64,000 bases of DNA from an uncultured Flavobacteriales bacterium. GTDB taxonomy: Bacteria; Bacteroidota; Bacteroidia; Flavobacteriales_D; Crocinitomicaceae. This document shows, piece after piece, positions 20,799 to 35,885 of the stretch; position 1 is the stretch's first letter; each line of letters starts with the position of its first letter. A model generated the notes under the pieces. It ran no database searches, had not been told where the DNA came from, and worked only from the letters and a program-made list of their open reading frames with translations. The position numbers and the translations under genes were made by a program. The stretch lies in assembly GCA_903935095.1 (NCBI GenBank), contig CAIZQH010000022.1, forward strand, positions 1-64,000, given 5' to 3'.

Positions 20799-23700
20799 TT
20801 ATTGAATGATCAATCGGAGGATTTCTTTTTGATTTTCAAGTGTCACATGCACCAAGTATGCACCCGTAGAAAGTCTTAAATTACTTACCTCGAGGCTTGT
20901 TCCATTGATCCACTGTTGGAATAAAACTTTTCCATTCATGTCTGTCACTTGGATGTTTGCATTGGCAACTTCCGCATTGAACCGTATAGCAAATGCACCG
21001 TTTGATGGATTCGGAACAAGTCCAACATGAACGCTTGTTACATCCGTTAACCCAAGGTATCCATCTACGCCATCACAGTTTTCATCGATATCATTCGATG
21101 AAATATCCGTTGCTCCTGGGTATACATTTGGATTCATGTCATCACAGTCACCATCGACTAATACATATCCTGGAATTGGAATTTGTTGACAAGAAACCAA
21201 TCCAATACCCGCACCAAATTGATCATTATCCGAATCTAAATAGTAAGTATTGAATACCAGTCCTTCATCATTTGTTCCATTACAGTTGTTATCGAATCCA
21301 TCACAGATTTCTGCAGCTCCTGGATAAATCGTAGTGTCATTATCGTTACAGTCACCACCGATTATCACTGTGTTTACTGGTTGCGTACATGACAAAGTTC
21401 CTGTAGCATCATCACCGAATCCATCATTGTCTACATCAACATAGTACATTGTTGGGGCAGTAATGTTTGCATTGGAATCATCACAATCAGTATCATTCAA
21501 TACATATCCCGTTGGTGGTGTACATCCTGTAAAGGTATTCGTTGCATCACCTTGCAAATCGCCATCCAAGTCTATATACCAAACCGTTGTTGGATTGATT
21601 GTTGAATCTACATCATTACAATCTTGACTGTTTGAAACAAATCCCATTGGCATTGCACATGAAATAGAATCATTCAAGAAATCTCCAAATCCATCTTGAT
21701 CAAGATCGGCATAGTAGGTAATTCCGGGGTAAATCGTGTTGTCTGCATCATTACAATCTCCACCTACAGTCACCATGTTTACCTGAGGCGTGCAAAAATC
21801 CGCAGCACTTACATCATCACCAAATCCATCAAGGTCAACATCGGCATAATAAGTTGTAGGTCCTGTTATGTTTGCATCGGAATCATTACAATCCGTCGCA
21901 TTCAAAACGTATCCCACAGGTGGTGTACATCCTGTGAAAGTCATTGTTGCATTCCCGAGTAAATCTCCATCCATGTCCATGTACCAAATGGTATTTGGAT
22001 TGATTGTTGCATCTGCATCGTTGCAATCTAAACTGTTTGAAACATATCCTTGCGGTGCATTACAAGAAAATATAGCGTTGGTAGCATCACCAAATCCATC
22101 TAAATCTGCATCTGAAAAGAAGTTCTGAGGTTGTATTGAATTAATATTTCCCCAAAGACTTACATTATCATTTCTCCAAGTGGCCTCTGAGGCAGAAATT
22201 CCGGTGATATAAAATCGAAAAGTAACTTGATTTATCCCACTAAATTCGGGTCCAAGAATAACTGTATCATTTAGTAAAGCGTTACTTAATATCGAATCTG
22301 AGGCAATATTACTCGTGAAATTATCTAAACTTGAACGCAAATACCATAAAGGAGTAGTATTTACATTACTCACTTTATTCGTAAAAGTCAATTTCGTTAA
22401 ATGAAGATTGAAACACGAATCGGATTGTATAGAAAATTGATTGTAATTATTTAGATTAATTATTGCGGTTGTATTCCAAGTATTGTTGTTAAATACATTA
22501 GCGGCACCTACGCATGAACCACCTTGATTGGTATAGTTAGAAAAAGTTGCATTTGAAGGTTGTAAGGTAACCATATCAGCTGTTACAGGACAAGTATTTG
22601 CTTGTGTAAATTCATAAATCCCCAACATCACCGGAGTTAATGGAGCATCCGCACCATTACAATCCTCATCGATTCCATTTCCTTCTATTTCCACTGCACC
22701 AGGATAGATCAAATTGTTTGCATCGTTGCAATCGGTGCTATCCAAAACATAACCAACTGGTAATGAACACGCATTGATCACTTGATTCAAATTCCCAAAA
22801 TTATCCCCATCTAAATCTTGGTAATAATTTAAGAAAATTAGGTTTTCGTCAATTGCTCCAGAACAGTTATTATCAAGGTTGTCACAAATTTCTGTGTTAC
22901 CTGGATACATATTTGCATTCGCATCGTTACAATCGCCGGTTACTAGTACATAATTTGATCCAGGGGAAACAATGTCCACAACAAAGCTTGAACCTCCAAA
23001 TCCATCTCCATCCGCATCTAAGTAAAATGTTAGTGGTGCAAACCCTTCATCCGTAATTCCGTTGCAATTGTTATCTAAACCATCGAATATTTCGATGAAC
23101 GAAGGATTCATAGAAGCTAAATTATCGTTGCAATCTGTACTATTGGCAACATATCCTGTCGGTTGACCGCAGTTTATTTGACTGACTGCTATATTACCGA
23201 AACCATCTCCATCGGCATCTGCATACCATGTGCTTACCTGATTCGCTAAAGGATTATTATCGTTACAATCGGTATTATTGGCAACATAACCTGCTGGTTG
23301 ACCACAATTAGACAAGGTCACTGCGGGATTTCCAAATCCATCTAGATCCGCATCTTGATACCATGTTGACAACTGATTTACCAAAGGATCGTTATCGTTA
23401 CAATCGGTATTATTGGCCACATATCCAAGCGGTTGAGTACATCCTGTCTGGGTAAGTGAACTATTTCCGAATCCATCAGCATCCGCGTCTATGTACCAAA
23501 GCGTATTCGGATTGACACCCGCATTGTTATCATTGCAATCAAGGTTATTGGTAACATATCCCGGGATAGTTTGACAGAGTAACGTTTGAGTATTGGCATC
23601 ACCATAGGTATCACCATCAAGATCTGGGTAATAAACTGTTGGACTAGCACAAGGCGTTACAGATGCCCAAGTTGTTCCAACTCTCAACTCGTCTAATTGT

Positions 23701-24395
23701 ACAAATGGAGTTGTTGCTGCTGCTGCTTGTCTTAAAAGAAATCGCCCTAAACCTGCAGCGGATATATCGGTACCTCCATTACTTGTCAGTGTTGACGTAG
23801 GTTCCGTTCCACCCAGCTGAGTAGTGTTAACCCACATTTTTGAAAAATCATTTCCTGTGCCCGTTACAATTGAATAAGAAATGACTATAAAATAGGATTC
23901 ATTTGTGTTCATGTCAGAAGTGAAATAGACTGGTGTCGAACCTGAGCTACGATTAGAAATACCTATTAAAAATTTACCCGGTGTAGCACTAGCTTTCAAC
24001 CAAACACATGCAGCAAAAGCTGAGATGGAATTCGATTCAATTAAATTTGCACAATAACTTCCTGTAGCATCAAGACCACCTAAGGAAGAAACGTTTATAA
24101 TAAATGATGCATATGTTGTTCCCGAAGTCTGGGTAGAAAACGATTTATAATTATCAGATCCTGCTCCATCAAAAATAACTTTATTTCCACTTGATACTGC
24201 TAAACCAGCATAATCTAAACTACCTGATGAAATCAAAATAGAATCTTGTGTATTAATCTTTATCCAGGCTCCAGAGCTTTGTGATGCAAGTCCGTTTGTT
24301 GGGCTAGGAAGATAATTAAATGGTTCGTGAAAAATTAATTGTGCGTTAGCATAAGTAATTGTAAATGAAATCAAAACAAGTAAAATTCTTTTCAT
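20799..24395 (-). CDS. T9SS-secreted surface protein with MopE-type metal-binding repeats
   Basis: A 1198-residue secreted protein. A signal peptide (MKRILLVLISFTITYANAQ) precedes an about 220-residue beta-rich domain that looks lectin- or LamG-like. Then come 13 copies of an Asp-rich, Cys-containing repeat, with cores such as TDCNDNDPLVN, GDCNDANANMYP and LDCNDADATINP, each preceded by DxDGDGFG-like segments and C..P.GYV. These match the putative metal-binding repeat first described in MopE. The array is interrupted at about residues 590-770 by a unique domain. The C-terminal 75 residues (VPNPSNGAFAIRF...) are a T9SS type A sorting domain. I chose the ATG at 24395, which begins the signal peptide. 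Calcium or copper binding is inference. Confidence 0.88.
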   Translation of the reverse strand: MKRILLVLISFTITYANAQLIFHEPFNYLPSPTNGLASQSSGAWIKINTQDSILISSGSLDYAGLAVSSGNKVIFDGAGSDNYKSFSTQTSGTTYASFIINVSSLGGLDATGSYCANLIESNSISAFAACVWLKASATPGKFLIGISNRSSGSTPVYFTSDMNTNESYFIVISYSIVTGTGNDFSKMWVNTTQLGGTEPTSTLTSNGGTDISAAGLGRFLLRQAAAATTPFVQLDELRVGTTWASVTPCASPTVYYPDLDGDTYGDANTQTLLCQTIPGYVTNNLDCNDNNAGVNPNTLWYIDADADGFGNSSLTQTGCTQPLGYVANNTDCNDNDPLVNQLSTWYQDADLDGFGNPAVTLSNCGQPAGYVANNTDCNDNNPLANQVSTWYADADGDGFGNIAVSQINCGQPTGYVANSTDCNDNLASMNPSFIEIFDGLDNNCNGITDEGFAPLTFYLDADGDGFGGSSFVVDIVSPGSNYVLVTGDCNDANANMYPGNTEICDNLDNNCSGAIDENLIFLNYYQDLDGDNFGNLNQVINACSLPVGYVLDSTDCNDANNLIYPGAVEIEGNGIDEDCNGADAPLTPVMLGIYEFTQANTCPVTADMVTLQPSNATFSNYTNQGGSCVGAANVFNNNTWNTTAIINLNNYNQFSIQSDSCFNLHLTKLTFTNKVSNVNTTPLWYLRSSLDNFTSNIASDSILSNALLNDTVILGPEFSGINQVTFRFYITGISASEATWRNDNVSLWGNINSIQPQNFFSDADLDGFGDATNAIFSCNAPQGYVSNSLDCNDADATINPNTIWYMDMDGDLLGNATMTFTGCTPPVGYVLNATDCNDSDANITGPTTYYADVDLDGFGDDVSAADFCTPQVNMVTVGGDCNDADNTIYPGITYYADLDQDGFGDFLNDSISCAMPMGFVSNSQDCNDVDSTINPTTVWYIDLDGDLQGDATNTFTGCTPPTGYVLNDTDCDDSNANITAPTMYYVDVDNDGFGDDATGTLSCTQPVNTVIIGGDCNDNDTTIYPGAAEICDGFDNNCNGTNDEGLVFNTYYLDSDNDQFGAGIGLVSCQQIPIPGYVLVDGDCDDMNPNVYPGATDISSNDIDENCDGVDGYLGLTDVTSVHVGLVPNPSNGAFAIRFNAEVANANIQVTDMNGKVLFQQWINGTSLEVSNLRLSTGAYLVHVTLENQKEILRLIIQ

Positions 24396-24453
24396 AAAAT
24401 ATATTTTCAGTAAAACTAAGGAAACCAAATGAAATCTGAATTACCAGAACATT

Positions 24454-27153: not shown

Positions 27154-29265
27154 TTAGTTTTCGTCTTCGCAAGAACTGCAATCGCAGCCACCATCATTGT
27201 AAAAGGCTAATGGAATCGATTCGCCATCGTTGCAATAATAATATTCTTCAGGGGCCTCAGAAATGGAAGCATCCTGAGCCAGGTTATCATCAATTACCAC
27301 ATCGTTCTGAACCTCATCTGCTACATTTTCGTTTTCCTCCGTATTGCCTTGAATAGACTCCTCTTTATTATCCTTCGGGTTGGCCGTTGTCATTTCATCG
27401 ACAAAAGAATCGACCCATTTCAATGGCTCATCCATTACTTTATTTGGATTCATTGCTCCTACTGCTAAAGCACCTAAAAGGATAAAAGCCAACCATGGTT
27501 GATTGGAATTTTTAGATTTTTCATCCTCAAATGCTGCAACTAAGCCAGATCCATTATAAGAATCGTAGGTAGATTGAACGGTTAAAGCAAATAATGCAAA
27601 AAAGAACGCAACGATTAGAGAGAACAAGGCATATTTTGAAATTAGGTAGAACAGGTAAGAAGTCGCATAACTAGACCAATTCCCTTTCAAGCTTTCCGTA
27701 TTCGCCTTTGCTGCAGCAATGAGTGCATCGTCATACTTAATCGTTCGCTCTCTTACCACTTGAATTTTATCCAACTCAATTGTCATTGAAGTGATTAATT
27801 CCGTGTAATAATTGGAAGCCAGCGGATTCACAAGGATTTCAGTTAAAGCTCTTTTTGCTTCGTCTATTTGAACGTTATACGTTTTTATCGATTCATCTAG
27901 GTTTTTGATCTCTTCCTTTTTTGAATCTTCTAATTCCTTTGAGAATTTTTCTGAAGCTTCAACTCGGCCATCAAATTCCTTGCGCGTATTCACGGGTTTC
28001 AAATCCGTTCCAAATGAACCAGCTTCGGAAATAAATGAGGTAAACAACTTGTTTTCACCTACTTTATAGTACAATTCACATTCTTGTTTTAGTGAATCTA
28101 GTTCATTAGAAAAGGCATTTTCTTTCGTTGAATCAGCATTCATCAAAAGGTCTTTTTCATCAGAAGTCGTATACACTTTTAGGTCTTTATTCAATTGATC
28201 GAGTTTATCATCTAAATGAACTTGCACAATCGATTTTCCTGCTTGATCTGAGACCATTTTAAGTACAGCAATTGGCAACAAAGTAATGATTGTGCCAATA
28301 ATTGCCACAAATAAATATTGATAACAGAATGATAAAGAGCGCTTGAATGATTCGACAAAGAAAACTCGAATTTTTTCCACCCAATTTTTCTCATTTGTTG
28401 TATTGGAATAAATAACACCAATGGAACTAGAGAATAAAAGGGATAAAGCTATCAACCCTGTAATCAAGAATCCTACGATTGTTGGAACATGTAATATTCC
28501 CGCAAATGTACCTCCCAATTTAATAGAAGCATCTCCTTTGTTTAAGAAGTATAAGATACCGACTATAGCAATAGCAAAGCCACACAATGCTAAGGTAAAC
28601 AGGACGGATTTCATCGCTGCTGCCCTTGTTCCATAAATATGCTCCGATACAATCCATGTTAATGTTAACGCAGCTATAACCAATGTTCCATATTCACTAA
28701 TTGCATTGTTATTTGCCATAAATGCAATAAACATTAAAATTGCTGCAAGCACAGACCCAATCAATGATGGCCATAAAACACGGTGATAAAACGCTCTATT
28801 TAAAACAGATGGCACGCTTCTAATGACTCCTAAAAGGGCGTGAAATGGCATTTTTATCAGATAATGATAGGCTAGTTTTAACAACATCCAAACGGAAGGT
28901 GAAACAACATTTTCCCAAATCCAAAAGAATAAAAACTTGATCCATTTAAATAAGAAATCGGAAATAAAACGTGTCACTTCTAACACAAAGAAAACGGAAT
29001 AGATAAATACATTGTATAAAAAGGATAAAGCGATTCCTAGAATGGCAAATGGCATAAACCAATTTGATTTTTCTGAGATTTTAGCCGCCAAACTATTCCG
29101 GTCGATTATACCATCGGGTTTTTTACTCATCCAATTGGAGAGAATAAACCCTCCCAAGGAAATTACAAGCCAATTTGCAATAAAAAAGGTCACCCAATTT
29201 GCAAACATTGATTGGGGTCCAAAAAGCATAGACATCGCTTGCTCTGGTAATTTTAATAATTCCAT
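27154..29265 (-). CDS. Polytopic membrane protein of unknown family with LDLa-like C-terminal motif
   Basis: I do not recognise this 703-residue protein as a whole. It has about nine hydrophobic segments in the first 350 residues, a soluble coiled-coil-like region at about 350-545 (charged, with ELDSLKQECELYYK and SKKEEIKNLDESIK), then two more membrane segments (about 555-580 and 605-625). An acidic tail ends in a cysteine motif. The last 26 residues hold Cys678, Cys694, Cys696 and Cys699 in CNDGESIPLAFYNDGGCDC and then SSCEDEN. This resembles the calcium-binding core of LDL-receptor class A modules and of the glucosidase II beta N-terminus (CxDGxxIPxxxxNDGxCDCxDGSDE). It is a single gene with its own terminator. 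Role unknown. Confidence 0.8.
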   Translation of the reverse strand: MELLKLPEQAMSMLFGPQSMFANWVTFFIANWLVISLGGFILSNWMSKKPDGIIDRNSLAAKISEKSNWFMPFAILGIALSFLYNVFIYSVFFVLEVTRFISDFLFKWIKFLFFWIWENVVSPSVWMLLKLAYHYLIKMPFHALLGVIRSVPSVLNRAFYHRVLWPSLIGSVLAAILMFIAFMANNNAISEYGTLVIAALTLTWIVSEHIYGTRAAAMKSVLFTLALCGFAIAIVGILYFLNKGDASIKLGGTFAGILHVPTIVGFLITGLIALSLLFSSSIGVIYSNTTNEKNWVEKIRVFFVESFKRSLSFCYQYLFVAIIGTIITLLPIAVLKMVSDQAGKSIVQVHLDDKLDQLNKDLKVYTTSDEKDLLMNADSTKENAFSNELDSLKQECELYYKVGENKLFTSFISEAGSFGTDLKPVNTRKEFDGRVEASEKFSKELEDSKKEEIKNLDESIKTYNVQIDEAKRALTEILVNPLASNYYTELITSMTIELDKIQVVRERTIKYDDALIAAAKANTESLKGNWSSYATSYLFYLISKYALFSLIVAFFFALFALTVQSTYDSYNGSGLVAAFEDEKSKNSNQPWLAFILLGALAVGAMNPNKVMDEPLKWVDSFVDEMTTANPKDNKEESIQGNTEENENVADEVQNDVVIDDNLAQDASISEAPEEYYYCNDGESIPLAFYNDGGCDCSSCEDEN

Positions 29266-29415: not shown

Positions 29416-29423
29416 TATCTTTG
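29416..29423 (+). promoter_or_regulatory. Putative -7 element of the riboswitch transcript (TATCTTTG)
   Basis: TATCTTTG matches TAnnTTTG and lies just before the riboswitch. A TTTG is found 14 bp upstream (29398-29401), shorter than the usual spacing. Confidence 0.4.
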
Positions 29424-29430
29424 CCACGTA

Positions 29431-29625
29431 CATTGGTTCTCATTTTTGAGATTAATAAGGAATCCGGTTTGAATCCGGAGCTGTATCTGCAGCTGTAAAT
29501 GTCTAAAATGCAATTCATTAAGTCACTGAGCGATTGGGAAGACGAATTGAAAGGGACATGAGCCAGAAGACTTGCCCATGAACAGAGAGAAGACTTCAGA
29601 TAAAGGTCGGACTCGCCAAGGGTGT
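29431..29625 (+). ncRNA. Cobalamin riboswitch
   Basis: The region has the ordered blocks of a cobalamin aptamer: TTGGTTCTC near 29433, the AATCCGGTTTGAATCCGGAGCTG core at 29461-29483, GCAGCTGTAA at 29489-29498, GTCACTGAG at 29522-29530, TGGGAAGACG at 29535-29544, and the B12 box AGCCAGAAGACTTGCC at 29571-29586. A small hairpin, GGGTG-TTTTG-CATCC (about 29620-29634), follows and may be part of the expression platform. No strong terminator lies between aptamer and gene, so control may be translational or through folding of the leader (inference). High cobalamin would be expected to lower expression of the downstream gene. Confidence 0.92.
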
Positions 29626-29698
29626 TTTGCATCCTAGCTTTTCCTACTTTTTTCTTCTTCTAGTTTTTTATTGTTTCACATTCAAAAAAACAGAACGA

Positions 29699-30955
29699 AT
29701 GAAAAAGGCATTGATTACATTAAGTTTATTTGCAAGCACATGGAGCTTTGCACAAAATCAATTACACCAAGTTTTGGTCGTAAATGAGGGTTATTTTGAT
29801 TACCAAACAGGTGCCATCTTAGAACCTGTGACCATTGGGAGTTACAATCCAACAACGCAACTATACCAGGTGGTTGATACCTTGGAAAATATGCGTTTCG
29901 CATCCGATTTAGTGATTGACGGGAATTTCTATTTCGTAGCGGCAGATTCGAAAATCTTTAAAATGGAATTAAATACACATCAAGAAATCGCGAGCGTTGC
30001 TTGTCCAGGTGTTCGTAACCTTGCGGTTTACCAAAATAAATTGGTCGCGACTCGTGGAGAGTACTTGACAACTTTCGATTCCTATTTGCATGTATACAAC
30101 ATCGCGGACTTGCAATTAATTCAAGCGTTTGATACAGTGACCGGTCCAAAATGGGCAACTCAAAACATCGTGATTGACGGAACAACAGCCTACCTAGTGG
30201 TAAACAACGCTTACGATTGGGGAAATGAGAAAGGAATCATTGGCCAATTAAACCTCTCGAACCTATCTTATGGAAACGAAGTGGATTTAGGTCCGGAAGG
30301 GAAAAATCCAGATAACCTTATCAAATTTGGATCTGCGCTTTACACGGTAAACAACAAAGACTGGAATGGAACGTCGATTTCGAAATTCGAATTAGCAACA
30401 AACACGCCGTCAACTGTAAATATTGCTAATACCATCGCTGGATGCGGCACTTCCGCTTTAAGAGATGACAAAATTACTTATCAAATTTCCATGGAGACGA
30501 GTTTAAACAACTTTGATATCAATGGAATGAATAACATTGGTCCAGTAAACGGCATCAACGTAAATTTCTACGAACTTGCACAAGAACCAATCAGTGGTGA
30601 ATTTTATGCTTCAACGACGGATTTCTTCTCGACAGGAACCGTTTTCATATACGATGTCATGAATACCGAAGTCCATCAATTCGCTGCCGGTGTTTCCCCT
30701 GGAACCATCGTTTTTGATATTCGATCATCAGCCGGAATAAATGAAACAAGTGCCAACTTTAGTGTTTCTCCGAATCCTACGAATGACATCCTAACGATCC
30801 AAGGCAAATCAGCAAATGAATTGGTTTCCCTACTAGACCTAAATGGAACAACTGTTCTTTCAAGTACCGATACAAGCTTAAATATTTCAGAACTTCCCGC
30901 AGGGATTTACTATGTAAGCATCAACGGAACTTGTCAAAAAGTGATCAAACTTTAA
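29699..30955 (+). CDS. T9SS-secreted beta-propeller protein, BtuG-like (DUF5074/YncE-like)
   Basis: This 418-residue protein has a signal peptide (MKKALITLSLFASTWSFAQ), then a repeat-rich beta-propeller-like region (SDLVIDGNFYFVAADSKIFKM, GVRNLAVYQNKLVATRG, GPEGKNPDNLIKFG). It ends with a T9SS type A sorting domain (FSVSPNPTNDILTI ... LPAGIYYVSINGTCQKVIKL). The position directly behind a cobalamin riboswitch, together with the fold, points to a surface corrinoid-binding protein related to BtuG of Bacteroides. BtuG is a lipoprotein, whereas this one would be delivered by T9SS. I chose the ATG at 29699: the longer frame back to 29627 would run into the riboswitch region and spoil the signal peptide. 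No btuB-type receptor gene is adjacent. Confidence 0.85.
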   Translation: MKKALITLSLFASTWSFAQNQLHQVLVVNEGYFDYQTGAILEPVTIGSYNPTTQLYQVVDTLENMRFASDLVIDGNFYFVAADSKIFKMELNTHQEIASVACPGVRNLAVYQNKLVATRGEYLTTFDSYLHVYNIADLQLIQAFDTVTGPKWATQNIVIDGTTAYLVVNNAYDWGNEKGIIGQLNLSNLSYGNEVDLGPEGKNPDNLIKFGSALYTVNNKDWNGTSISKFELATNTPSTVNIANTIAGCGTSALRDDKITYQISMETSLNNFDINGMNNIGPVNGINVNFYELAQEPISGEFYASTTDFFSTGTVFIYDVMNTEVHQFAAGVSPGTIVFDIRSSAGINETSANFSVSPNPTNDILTIQGKSANELVSLLDLNGTTVLSSTDTSLNISELPAGIYYVSINGTCQKVIKL

Positions 30956-30974: not shown

Positions 30975-31003
30975 AAATCCCGGCATTGTCGGGATTTTTT
31001 TTT
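30975..31003 (+). terminator. Intrinsic terminator of the BtuG-like gene
   Basis: AAATCCCG (30975-30982) pairs with CGGGATTT (30990-30997), followed by a T-run to 31003. Confidence 0.88.
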
Positions 31004-34790: not shown

Positions 34791-35885
34791 CTAGTTCGTA
34801 TATATTTTCCCCTCCGATAAAACTACAGCAGTTTTATTAAACAGTTTTACGAGTACCTTATTTCCATAAATCTCAAATTCCGCATCGCGTATGTTGGTGA
34901 TTTCTTGAATTTTCCCATTGACCAGTGCACTTACACCTCCGACAATATTTCGGAAAACAAAGGTGTTATTCTTTAGTAGGTATTCGTTAGGGAAATAGGT
35001 TGCCACTTGTATTTTTTCGTCGTTGGCATATGCAAAAAGGTAACTATTCTCACTCCAAACAGTCATATCATCCTTCACATCCCAAAAAGAGGTTGAAAAA
35101 TTAGAAAGTGCTATTTTCTCCCCATTTTTAAACATCCACAAATTTCCATTTAAATCCTCATATACGATGAATCCTCTACCAGCCTTGTATTTTTTTATGG
35201 GCGATGATTCCACTTCGAAAAATTCACCTTTATCAAACATCATGAATGATTGCGTGTATGGATCTTTAAAACAAAATACATCCGTACCCACATTAAAGTC
35301 AACAACTTCCTCATTATAGGTTGCAATTTCAAAAGTTTTTCCCTGCCAAAAACAAAAATAAGTATTGCTGTTATCCTTGTAAACTGCAATATTCTCTCCC
35401 ACGGAAGCTGGCATGAAGAGTCCATTTGTCATGGTAACCATGGGGAGTATTTGTTTATTCCAATAAACATTCAATGATTGATAACGGGTATCTTCAAAAA
35501 CAATAAGGCTATCTTTCACGACAAAGCCCCTACCAAAATTCGTTAGCACCGTGTATTTTCCAGCGTCCCACATACGCAATCCATTTGCAATTTTATAGCC
35601 AACAAGGTGATCTGAAACTTGATATTCGACGTTTAATGCGGTCACATCTTTGCGTTCAATTCCATCGTAAATGCGCATGTTTCCCCGTGTATCGATATAC
35701 GCTACCACCTCGTCACCCGCTTTATAGCTTATGATTGGCTGAATTTCAATTGGACGAAAAAATCCTTCTTGAAAATTCACGAAATAGTTGTTAAAATCCA
35801 TTGTGGGGGCAATATTTTGAGCGAATCCACCTATCGAAAATAGCGTGAATACCTGTACAAATAATAGCTGCTTAAAAAATGTCAT
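34791..35885 (-). CDS. Secreted protein of unknown function, beta-propeller-like
   Basis: I do not recognise this 364-residue protein. A signal peptide (MTFFKQLLFVQVFTLFSIGGFAQ) precedes a series of short beta-rich units with aromatic and charged turns (DEVVAYIDTRGNMRIYDG, GNLWMFKNGEKIALSNF, DDMTVWSENSYLFAYAND). The periodic pattern suggests a propeller. No lipobox and no T9SS sorting domain is present, so it is probably periplasmic. It is the first gene of a two-gene operon with the NlpC/P60 peptidase. Confidence 0.75.
   Translation of the reverse strand: MTFFKQLLFVQVFTLFSIGGFAQNIAPTMDFNNYFVNFQEGFFRPIEIQPIISYKAGDEVVAYIDTRGNMRIYDGIERKDVTALNVEYQVSDHLVGYKIANGLRMWDAGKYTVLTNFGRGFVVKDSLIVFEDTRYQSLNVYWNKQILPMVTMTNGLFMPASVGENIAVYKDNSNTYFCFWQGKTFEIATYNEEVVDFNVGTDVFCFKDPYTQSFMMFDKGEFFEVESSPIKKYKAGRGFIVYEDLNGNLWMFKNGEKIALSNFSTSFWDVKDDMTVWSENSYLFAYANDEKIQVATYFPNEYLLKNNTFVFRNIVGGVSALVNGKIQEITNIRDAEFEIYGNKVLVKLFNKTAVVLSEGKIYTN

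Follow-up and report, generated by a model that had tools for sequence, protein, structure and literature searches.

The 64,000-nt stretch of DNA analysed here (the window; positions 1 to 64,000 of contig CAIZQH010000022.1, assembly GCA_903935095.1) derives from an uncultured Flavobacteriales bacterium of the Crocinitomicaceae and carries a cobalamin riboswitch followed by a gene for a predicted beta-propeller with a type IX secretion system (T9SS) sorting domain (Table 1). The riboswitch match to RF00174 covers the full length of the model (1-189) and scores far above the gathering score of 31.5 bits (E 1.5e-22). The full B12 aptamer proposed in the initial annotation is therefore borne out by the covariance model, although its start had been put at 29431, 14 nt inside the actual match. 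It is the single RF00174 match in the whole 2.48 Mb genome (99.6% complete). A chance resemblance is ruled out by the covariance score and by the position of the element immediately 5′ of the propeller gene in 29/29 congeneric loci scanned (the best-scoring 29 of 37 other propeller genomes in the genus). The same arrangement is found at loci L048 and L057, and a cobalamin riboswitch is present in 43 of 45 sampled genomes of the genus.

Table 1. Features of the propeller locus (window positions) and proteins recurring at related loci (locus:positions).
Feature	Position	Strand	Basis or remark
TATCTTTG, -7 promoter-like	29416..29423	+	sequence; overlaps first bases of Rfam match
Cobalamin riboswitch aptamer RF00174	29417..29593	+	covariance model, 95.6 bits
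Aptamer loop TATCTG, complementary to loop of hairpin 29592-29608	29484..29489	+	sequence
P13-like hairpin GACTTCAGATAAAGGTC, loop CAGATA	29592..29608	+	can pair with aptamer loop (complementarity only)
Terminator-like leader hairpin (stem 29619-29635) and T-rich tract	29619..29660	+	consensus scan and fold
BtuG-like T9SS propeller gene, 418 aa	29699..30955	+	ATG 29699, stop 30955
Sec-type signal peptide, residues 1-19	29699..29755	+	judged by eye
Beta-propeller, residues 20-343	29756..30727	+	AlphaFold model, Foldseek
Type A T9SS C-terminal sorting domain, residues 355-418	30761..30952	+	HMMs and model
Terminator-like hairpin 3′ of gene	30975..30997	+	consensus scan only
DUF4465 protein with T9SS tail	L066:4064-5020, L167:7814-8770, L168:387-1343, L171:7413-8378, L172:5244-6200, L173:7835-8815		
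CSP	L066:8078-9025; also L050, L051, L052, L072, L075, L167-L175, L181		

The octamer at the head of the leader fits what we take to be the Bacteroidota -7 promoter element, TAnnTTTG. Within the aptamer, the loop TATCTG sits in GCTGTATCTGCAGC (from 29480) and, in a feature not covered by the Rfam model, is complementary to the CAGATA loop of a P13-like hairpin with which it may pair. A hairpin of this kind, its stem paired, is found in 59 of 65 leaders, the window's included, and is followed by a T-rich stretch in 57 of these 59; it was not found in the other six leaders, all of which belong to loci labelled marine from isolate names, and in several relatives the complementarity between the two loops extends over at most 5 bases. 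Further 3′, a second leader hairpin at 29619 folds at -8.8 kcal/mol (z -2.59; 3 of 200 shuffles were equally good) and, with its T-rich tract, is probably the expression platform of the riboswitch. It appears by eye to be kept with altered letters in several relatives (e.g., L090, L091, and L103), and on this by-eye reading its retention despite changed letters fits transcription attenuation. A shared-hairpin energy of -5 or lower in 59/59 leaders, calculated without a shuffled control, was set aside as evidence.

The listed open reading frame begins at a TTG at 29627, a start that was rejected because relatives align from the ATG at 29699. The encoded protein lacks a lipobox cysteine, its cysteines lying at residues 102, 249, and 412 only, and its body has zero Pfam or NCBIfam matches at E 0.1. 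The T9SS sorting domain noted at the outset is recovered by PF18962 (40.5 bits, cut-off 27; residues 357-416), by TIGR04183 (33.4 bits, cut-off 23), and in an AlphaFold model built from a 65-sequence alignment (A2; mean pLDDT 88.8, pTM 0.76). The model is predicted to have seven blades, a number inferred from strand order. Further T9SS tails occur in one other window protein, and six tail matches are present in the genome. The terminator-like hairpin beyond the stop codon suggests that the propeller gene is probably a one-gene transcription unit. Elsewhere in the window are an S15-Flavobacteria ribosomal leader (RF03161; 27016-27083, minus strand) before rpsO; a 703-aa membrane-like protein encoded between that gene and the riboswitch (27154-29265), for which Pfam and NCBIfam gave no match at E 0.1; a T9SS-tailed protein of 1209 aa (20799-24428) in which MopE-type metal-binding motifs are repeated; and a 10-bladed propeller domain protein (PF21734, 303.6 bits; 34791-35885).

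When the predicted structure was compared with solved structures using Foldseek, ranks 1-10 were all occupied by BtuG chains (8okv, 8bmx, 8p97, 8bai, 8bmy, and 8bn0), the best match having an E of 7.8e-16, a TM of 0.82 on the target, and an rmsd of 2.5. Rank 11 was a designed propeller (E 1.2e-12, rmsd 12.7), and ranks 11-20 were other propellers at E 1.2e-12 or worse with rmsd values of 5.8-22, so that at the level of a model the likeness to BtuG noticed earlier holds, BtuG chains ranking before all others. Sequence comparison points the same way: a profile of 65 sequences reaches BtuG 8bmy by hmmsearch with a whole-sequence E of 2e-6, the best stretch being the last blade, and hhalign against 11 BtuGs gives a probability of 98.8 and an E of 1.3e-16. 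With a single sequence, phmmer places BtuG chains at only E 0.08-0.14. The propeller protein has no match to DUF5074 (PF16819), which counts against the reading developed below.

The residues described for the upper-ligand cavity of BtuG2 are Trp194, Trp272, Tyr316, and Tyr335 (PMC10404256). Tyr316 aligns with propeller Tyr291, which is invariant (65/65), and Tyr335 with Phe309. For Trp194 and Trp272 no one-to-one counterpart was found in the propeller, the position of the latter being occupied by GCGTS; almost all sequences of alignment A2 keep propeller residues Trp174 and Trp222. The missing tryptophans are not decisive, because the BtuG of locus L051 lacks both as well. In our reading the hhalign alignment of the whole propeller with BtuG seems to be one blade out of register, the last blade excepted, and for the pocket mapping we therefore relied on that blade together with a joint MAFFT alignment. 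The propeller would function in a BtuG-like manner, yet it lacks the marks by which the field recognizes a BtuG, namely a lipid anchor, DUF5074, and a btuB neighbour.

The absence of an adjacent btuB, also part of the initial annotation, is confirmed by tblastn of the window with BtuB, BtuG, BtuJ, CSP, BtuF, BtuC, and BtuD references at E 1e-3, which returned only the propeller and T9SS tails; an S1 query in the same search matched pnp. The genome as a whole contains zero btuB matches at E 0.001 and one match to DUF5074, below the cut-off (16.9 bits). It does encode B12-dependent enzymes: four of its five PF02310 matches lie above cut-off, and two of these four are MetH (TIGR02082, 1216 bits against a cut-off of 1011) and methylmalonyl-CoA mutase (1049 bits against 876). 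The sole FecCD permease, for which the best NCBIfam model is BtuC at a score below cut-off, is part of a BtuF-BtuC-BtuD-like set (L065). A 290-aa MerR-like regulator with a B12-binding domain is encoded at L063:958-1830 (G000:C19), its best NCBIfam model being CarH (96 bits, cut-off 400).

Within the genus (86 genomes), the propeller (counted at E 1e-20, some contig-end fragments included) is found in 69 and a close BtuB (identity of at least 55%) in eight; no genome has both and nine have neither. BtuB matches at E 0.001 were obtained in 13 of the 86, namely the eight close ones and five short ones at 27-33% identity in propeller genomes (G043, G067, G200, G268, and G339), which were not counted as BtuB and four of which lie inside the 618-aa receptor discussed below. 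Seven of the nine genomes with neither system are <90% complete, and in the other two (G142 and G218, 98-99% complete) the riboswitch, the propeller, a close BtuB, and BtuG were all not found. The zero overlap has a chance of 4.6e-7 if genomes are taken as independent, which relatives are not, and the set includes many incomplete genomes.

The BtuB genes of the genus belong to a cassette, seen for example in the propeller-less genomes G238, G260, and G286 (L066-L068), with the order riboswitch-BtuJ-BtuB-BtuG-CSP. BtuJ is here a DUF4465 protein that bears a T9SS tail in 6/6 tested, BtuG is a DUF5074 lipoprotein, and CSP denotes a T9SS-tailed cassette protein without a family. The BtuB of L066 matches BtuB1 of Bacteroides thetaiotaomicron at E 7e-74; in L068 the contig stops within BtuB. 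An RF00174 match stands immediately before BtuJ in all eight BtuB loci (L066-L068 and L167-L171). By tblastn, all eight also have flanks in common with the window propeller, pnp-S15 and/or PRTase-MurQ: both are present in L066, L067, L167, and L171, PRTase-MurQ alone in L168, L169, and L170, and pnp-S15 alone in L068, the other side lying beyond the contig or stretch. The cassette and the propeller hence occupy a neighbourhood that is shared though not identical. In 7/7 BtuB loci that extend far enough, CSP and PRTase are separated by a 339-aa gene that the window lacks; three BtuB loci have a 260-aa gene close to S15; and in none of the eight was a match obtained to the 703-aa gene of the window. 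The 339-aa gene (L066:9036-10052 and equivalents) is unassigned to a family. A tree of flanking genes, built from 48 of 89 loci including seven of the eight BtuB loci (41 loci without marker genes, L067 among them, were left out), needs two state changes. A test for the BtuB carriers forming a single clade, run on a quick tree, yielded p 0.039 and is treated as weak.

The same exchange of cassette and propeller is observed in a second genus (g8), at a different site from that of the window genus. Of its nine genomes, four contain the cassette, five the propeller, and none both, and the cassette genomes (L172-L175) retain the order riboswitch-BtuJ-BtuB-BtuG-CSP. One flank is a TonB receptor of ∼815 aa (67-95% identical across eight of nine loci; Pfam run on L172 and L178), and the other a TPMT-type methyltransferase gene (58-94% identical). 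The propeller locus L178 has both flanks in common with the cassette loci; in the other propeller loci the receptor flank is found in L176, L179, and L182 and the methyltransferase flank in L177.

Another possibility is that the propeller is simply a BtuG without a lipid anchor, acting as the lid of a BtuB encoded elsewhere. The candidate for such a partner is a 618-aa receptor (G000:C21; L059 7814-9667), which is the best match in the genome to TIGR01779, has E. coli BtuB as its nearest solved structure (E 5.8e-9, plug region), and is present in none of the eight BtuB-cassette genomes (chance ∼0.01 without ancestry correction). Its TIGR01779 score, however, is ∼99 bits against a cut-off of 599.7, heme receptor models score it nearly equally (94.0 and 91.5 bits), and FhuA follows closely in the structure ranking. 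No riboswitch was found upstream of it. It occurs in 32 of the 69 propeller genomes, for which reason an obligate partnership with the propeller was rejected, and its absence from 20 of 44 high-quality propeller genomes also counts against our preferred reading, that of a stand-in for the cassette. Nor was it detected in the 98%-complete genome G294, which by propeller identity is the nearest relative. A lid on this receptor is consequently regarded as rather unlikely.

In 299 sampled genomes of the order, a sample of a larger group, 92 contain the propeller only, 136 BtuG only, three both, and 68 neither (95 with a propeller body, tail-only matches excluded and some fragments kept; DUF5074 at E 1e-6 in 140, G250 with its 1301-aa frame not being counted as BtuG). 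For genus g1 in this sample the corresponding numbers are 38, five, zero, and two. The three genomes with both (G005, G011, and G014) belong to other families and encode, in one operon (L050-L052), a riboswitch followed by a T9SS propeller, CSP, a BtuB-like receptor, and BtuG. Their propellers are ∼25% identical to that of the window, and the operons indicate that the propeller family does not in every case replace BtuB-BtuG. Across the marine-labelled loci, where propeller identity is 44-50%, the riboswitch is immediately 5′ of the propeller in seven of eight; the remaining one (L156) is cut off by a contig end 13 nt upstream of the gene. The Rfam scan covered 10 of 80 loci: a riboswitch is present at L165, and none was found at the Saprospiraceae homolog L166 (41% identity). 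In family f9, 0 of 13 homolog loci (27-38% identity) have a riboswitch, which counts against the reading that we prefer. The protein tree of the propellers has weak deep branches, long-branch warnings, and scattered g8 rows, and no transfer history was drawn from it.

The f9 loci also invite the view that the propeller binds a non-corrinoid ligand or is an adhesin, the riboswitch signalling B12 status for some other purpose. Propellers bind many ligands, and two of the BtuG2 pocket tryptophans are not kept. Such a role appears quite improbable given that the propeller retains its position behind the riboswitch at identities as low as 44-50%, and in the operon-type members at ∼25%, that it excludes a B12 cassette in two genera, and that BtuG clearly leads all other folds in the structure ranking. 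Moreover, B12-binding-domain proteins are encoded in 11/11 f9 propeller genomes tested, as they are in six comparison genomes.

Several other proteins recur at B12-related loci of these bacteria. CSP (∼315 aa) is found repeatedly in B12-riboswitch operons of the order; beyond its tail it has no Pfam family (L050 and L066) and no solved relative (L066), and it is perhaps an undescribed B12 uptake component. A lipoprotein-like protein of ∼355 aa follows the propeller in L157 (9264-10334), L161 (9225-10280), and L163 (1727-2791). No Pfam match was obtained for the two of these that were tested, and the 13 best matches of a model of the L161 protein (three sequences, pLDDT 73.8) are BtuG chains, suggesting that some relatives pair a T9SS propeller with a distant BtuG. 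In another genus a riboswitch precedes a T9SS-tailed protein of ∼648 aa with an EGNFG motif (L070:3509-5752 and L071:3356-5579), which from its sequence may be a further T9SS protein under B12 control. In G129 (L181:5068-7393), cobT, cobS, and cobC, each above its model cut-off, adjoin a BtuB-CSP-BtuG locus.

The reading that we favour, at a probability of roughly 0.7, is that the propeller is a T9SS-exported, B12-repressed corrinoid-capture protein standing in for the BtuJ-BtuB-BtuG-CSP cassette. It is built on the riboswitch, the T9SS tail, the homology and predicted fold in common with BtuG, the exclusion of the cassette, the shared neighbourhood, and the B12-dependent enzymes of the genome. 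When B12 is scarce, the riboswitch would allow the single propeller gene to be read; repression by B12 is expected by analogy with the B. thetaiotaomicron riboswitch, for which ∼70-fold repression is described (PMC6143338). The type IX system would then carry the propeller across the outer membrane, to the surface or into the medium, where it would catch corrinoids outside the cell in the manner of BtuG and replace the uptake cassette found in congeners in this neighbourhood, downstream of the same riboswitch. The caught corrinoid would presumably be handed to a TonB-dependent receptor encoded elsewhere and then, by way of the genome's only BtuFCD-like ABC transporter, reach MetH and the CoA mutases. 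We regard as no more than tentative the stronger proposal that a single T9SS propeller is a full functional substitute for the four-protein cassette, permitting B12 import without a BtuB-family transporter by an undescribed hand-over to a different receptor, so that the two systems would be exchangeable modules behind a shared riboswitch.

T9SS cargo is described as either attached to A-LPS or released to the medium (PMC10202324), and the propeller, having no lipid anchor, might be released and act remotely as a siderophore-like corrinoid binder, to be shared or gathered in afterwards. In B. thetaiotaomicron, extracellular vesicles are described as carrying B12 binders (PMC12751083). Release would nevertheless appear costly in open water unless a receptor recovers the complex, and although the present data fit release and surface attachment equally, remote action of this kind is considered unlikely. 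With respect to the stand-in for the cassette, the alternative surface corrinoid-capture route put forward in the initial annotation is supported at the sequence level by the exclusion, the neighbourhood, and the riboswitch in congeners; it does not extend to the three genomes of other families in which a ∼25% identical member is combined with BtuB and BtuG.

In common with BtuG1-3 of B. thetaiotaomicron, the protein has a (predicted) propeller fold, sequence homology, B12 riboswitch control, an outward address, and an equivalent of Tyr316 (PMC10404256; PMC6143338). It differs from them in that a T9SS tail replaces the lipid anchor, a PF16819 match is absent, btuB is not adjacent and a close BtuB was not found in the genome, and it would replace BtuB-BtuG instead of joining them. 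BtuJ likewise represents riboswitch-controlled extracellular B12 capture (a role only predicted for the propeller) and is T9SS-tailed in congeners (PMC13398666; PMC12751083), but it is a jelly roll and belongs to the cassette that the propeller would replace. A flavobacterial B12 riboswitch before an outer-membrane uptake gene is also described for THC0290_1776 of Flavobacterium psychrophilum; there it controls the TonB receptor itself, and the available portion of that account mentions no T9SS propeller (PMC9723704). A BtuF/BtuC/BtuD-like ABC set is shared with the E. coli BtuB-BtuF-BtuCD system (PMC10404256), from which the present one differs in having no BtuB above cut-off and in the proposed extra capture step outside the cell. 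Among the matches listed in the open-access literature searched, no paper on a T9SS-exported BtuG relative was found.

Family models read the gene merely as a T9SS type A sorting domain protein, and a B12 locus of this kind is therefore easily overlooked in annotation. In one genus, 69 of 86 genomes encode the propeller but lack a close BtuB, which raises the questions of which receptor takes in B12 where BtuB is missing and of whether T9SS cargo is able to do the work of a surface lipoprotein. Scavenged B12 is needed by many microbes, and a differing strategy for its capture bears on the dependence between organisms.
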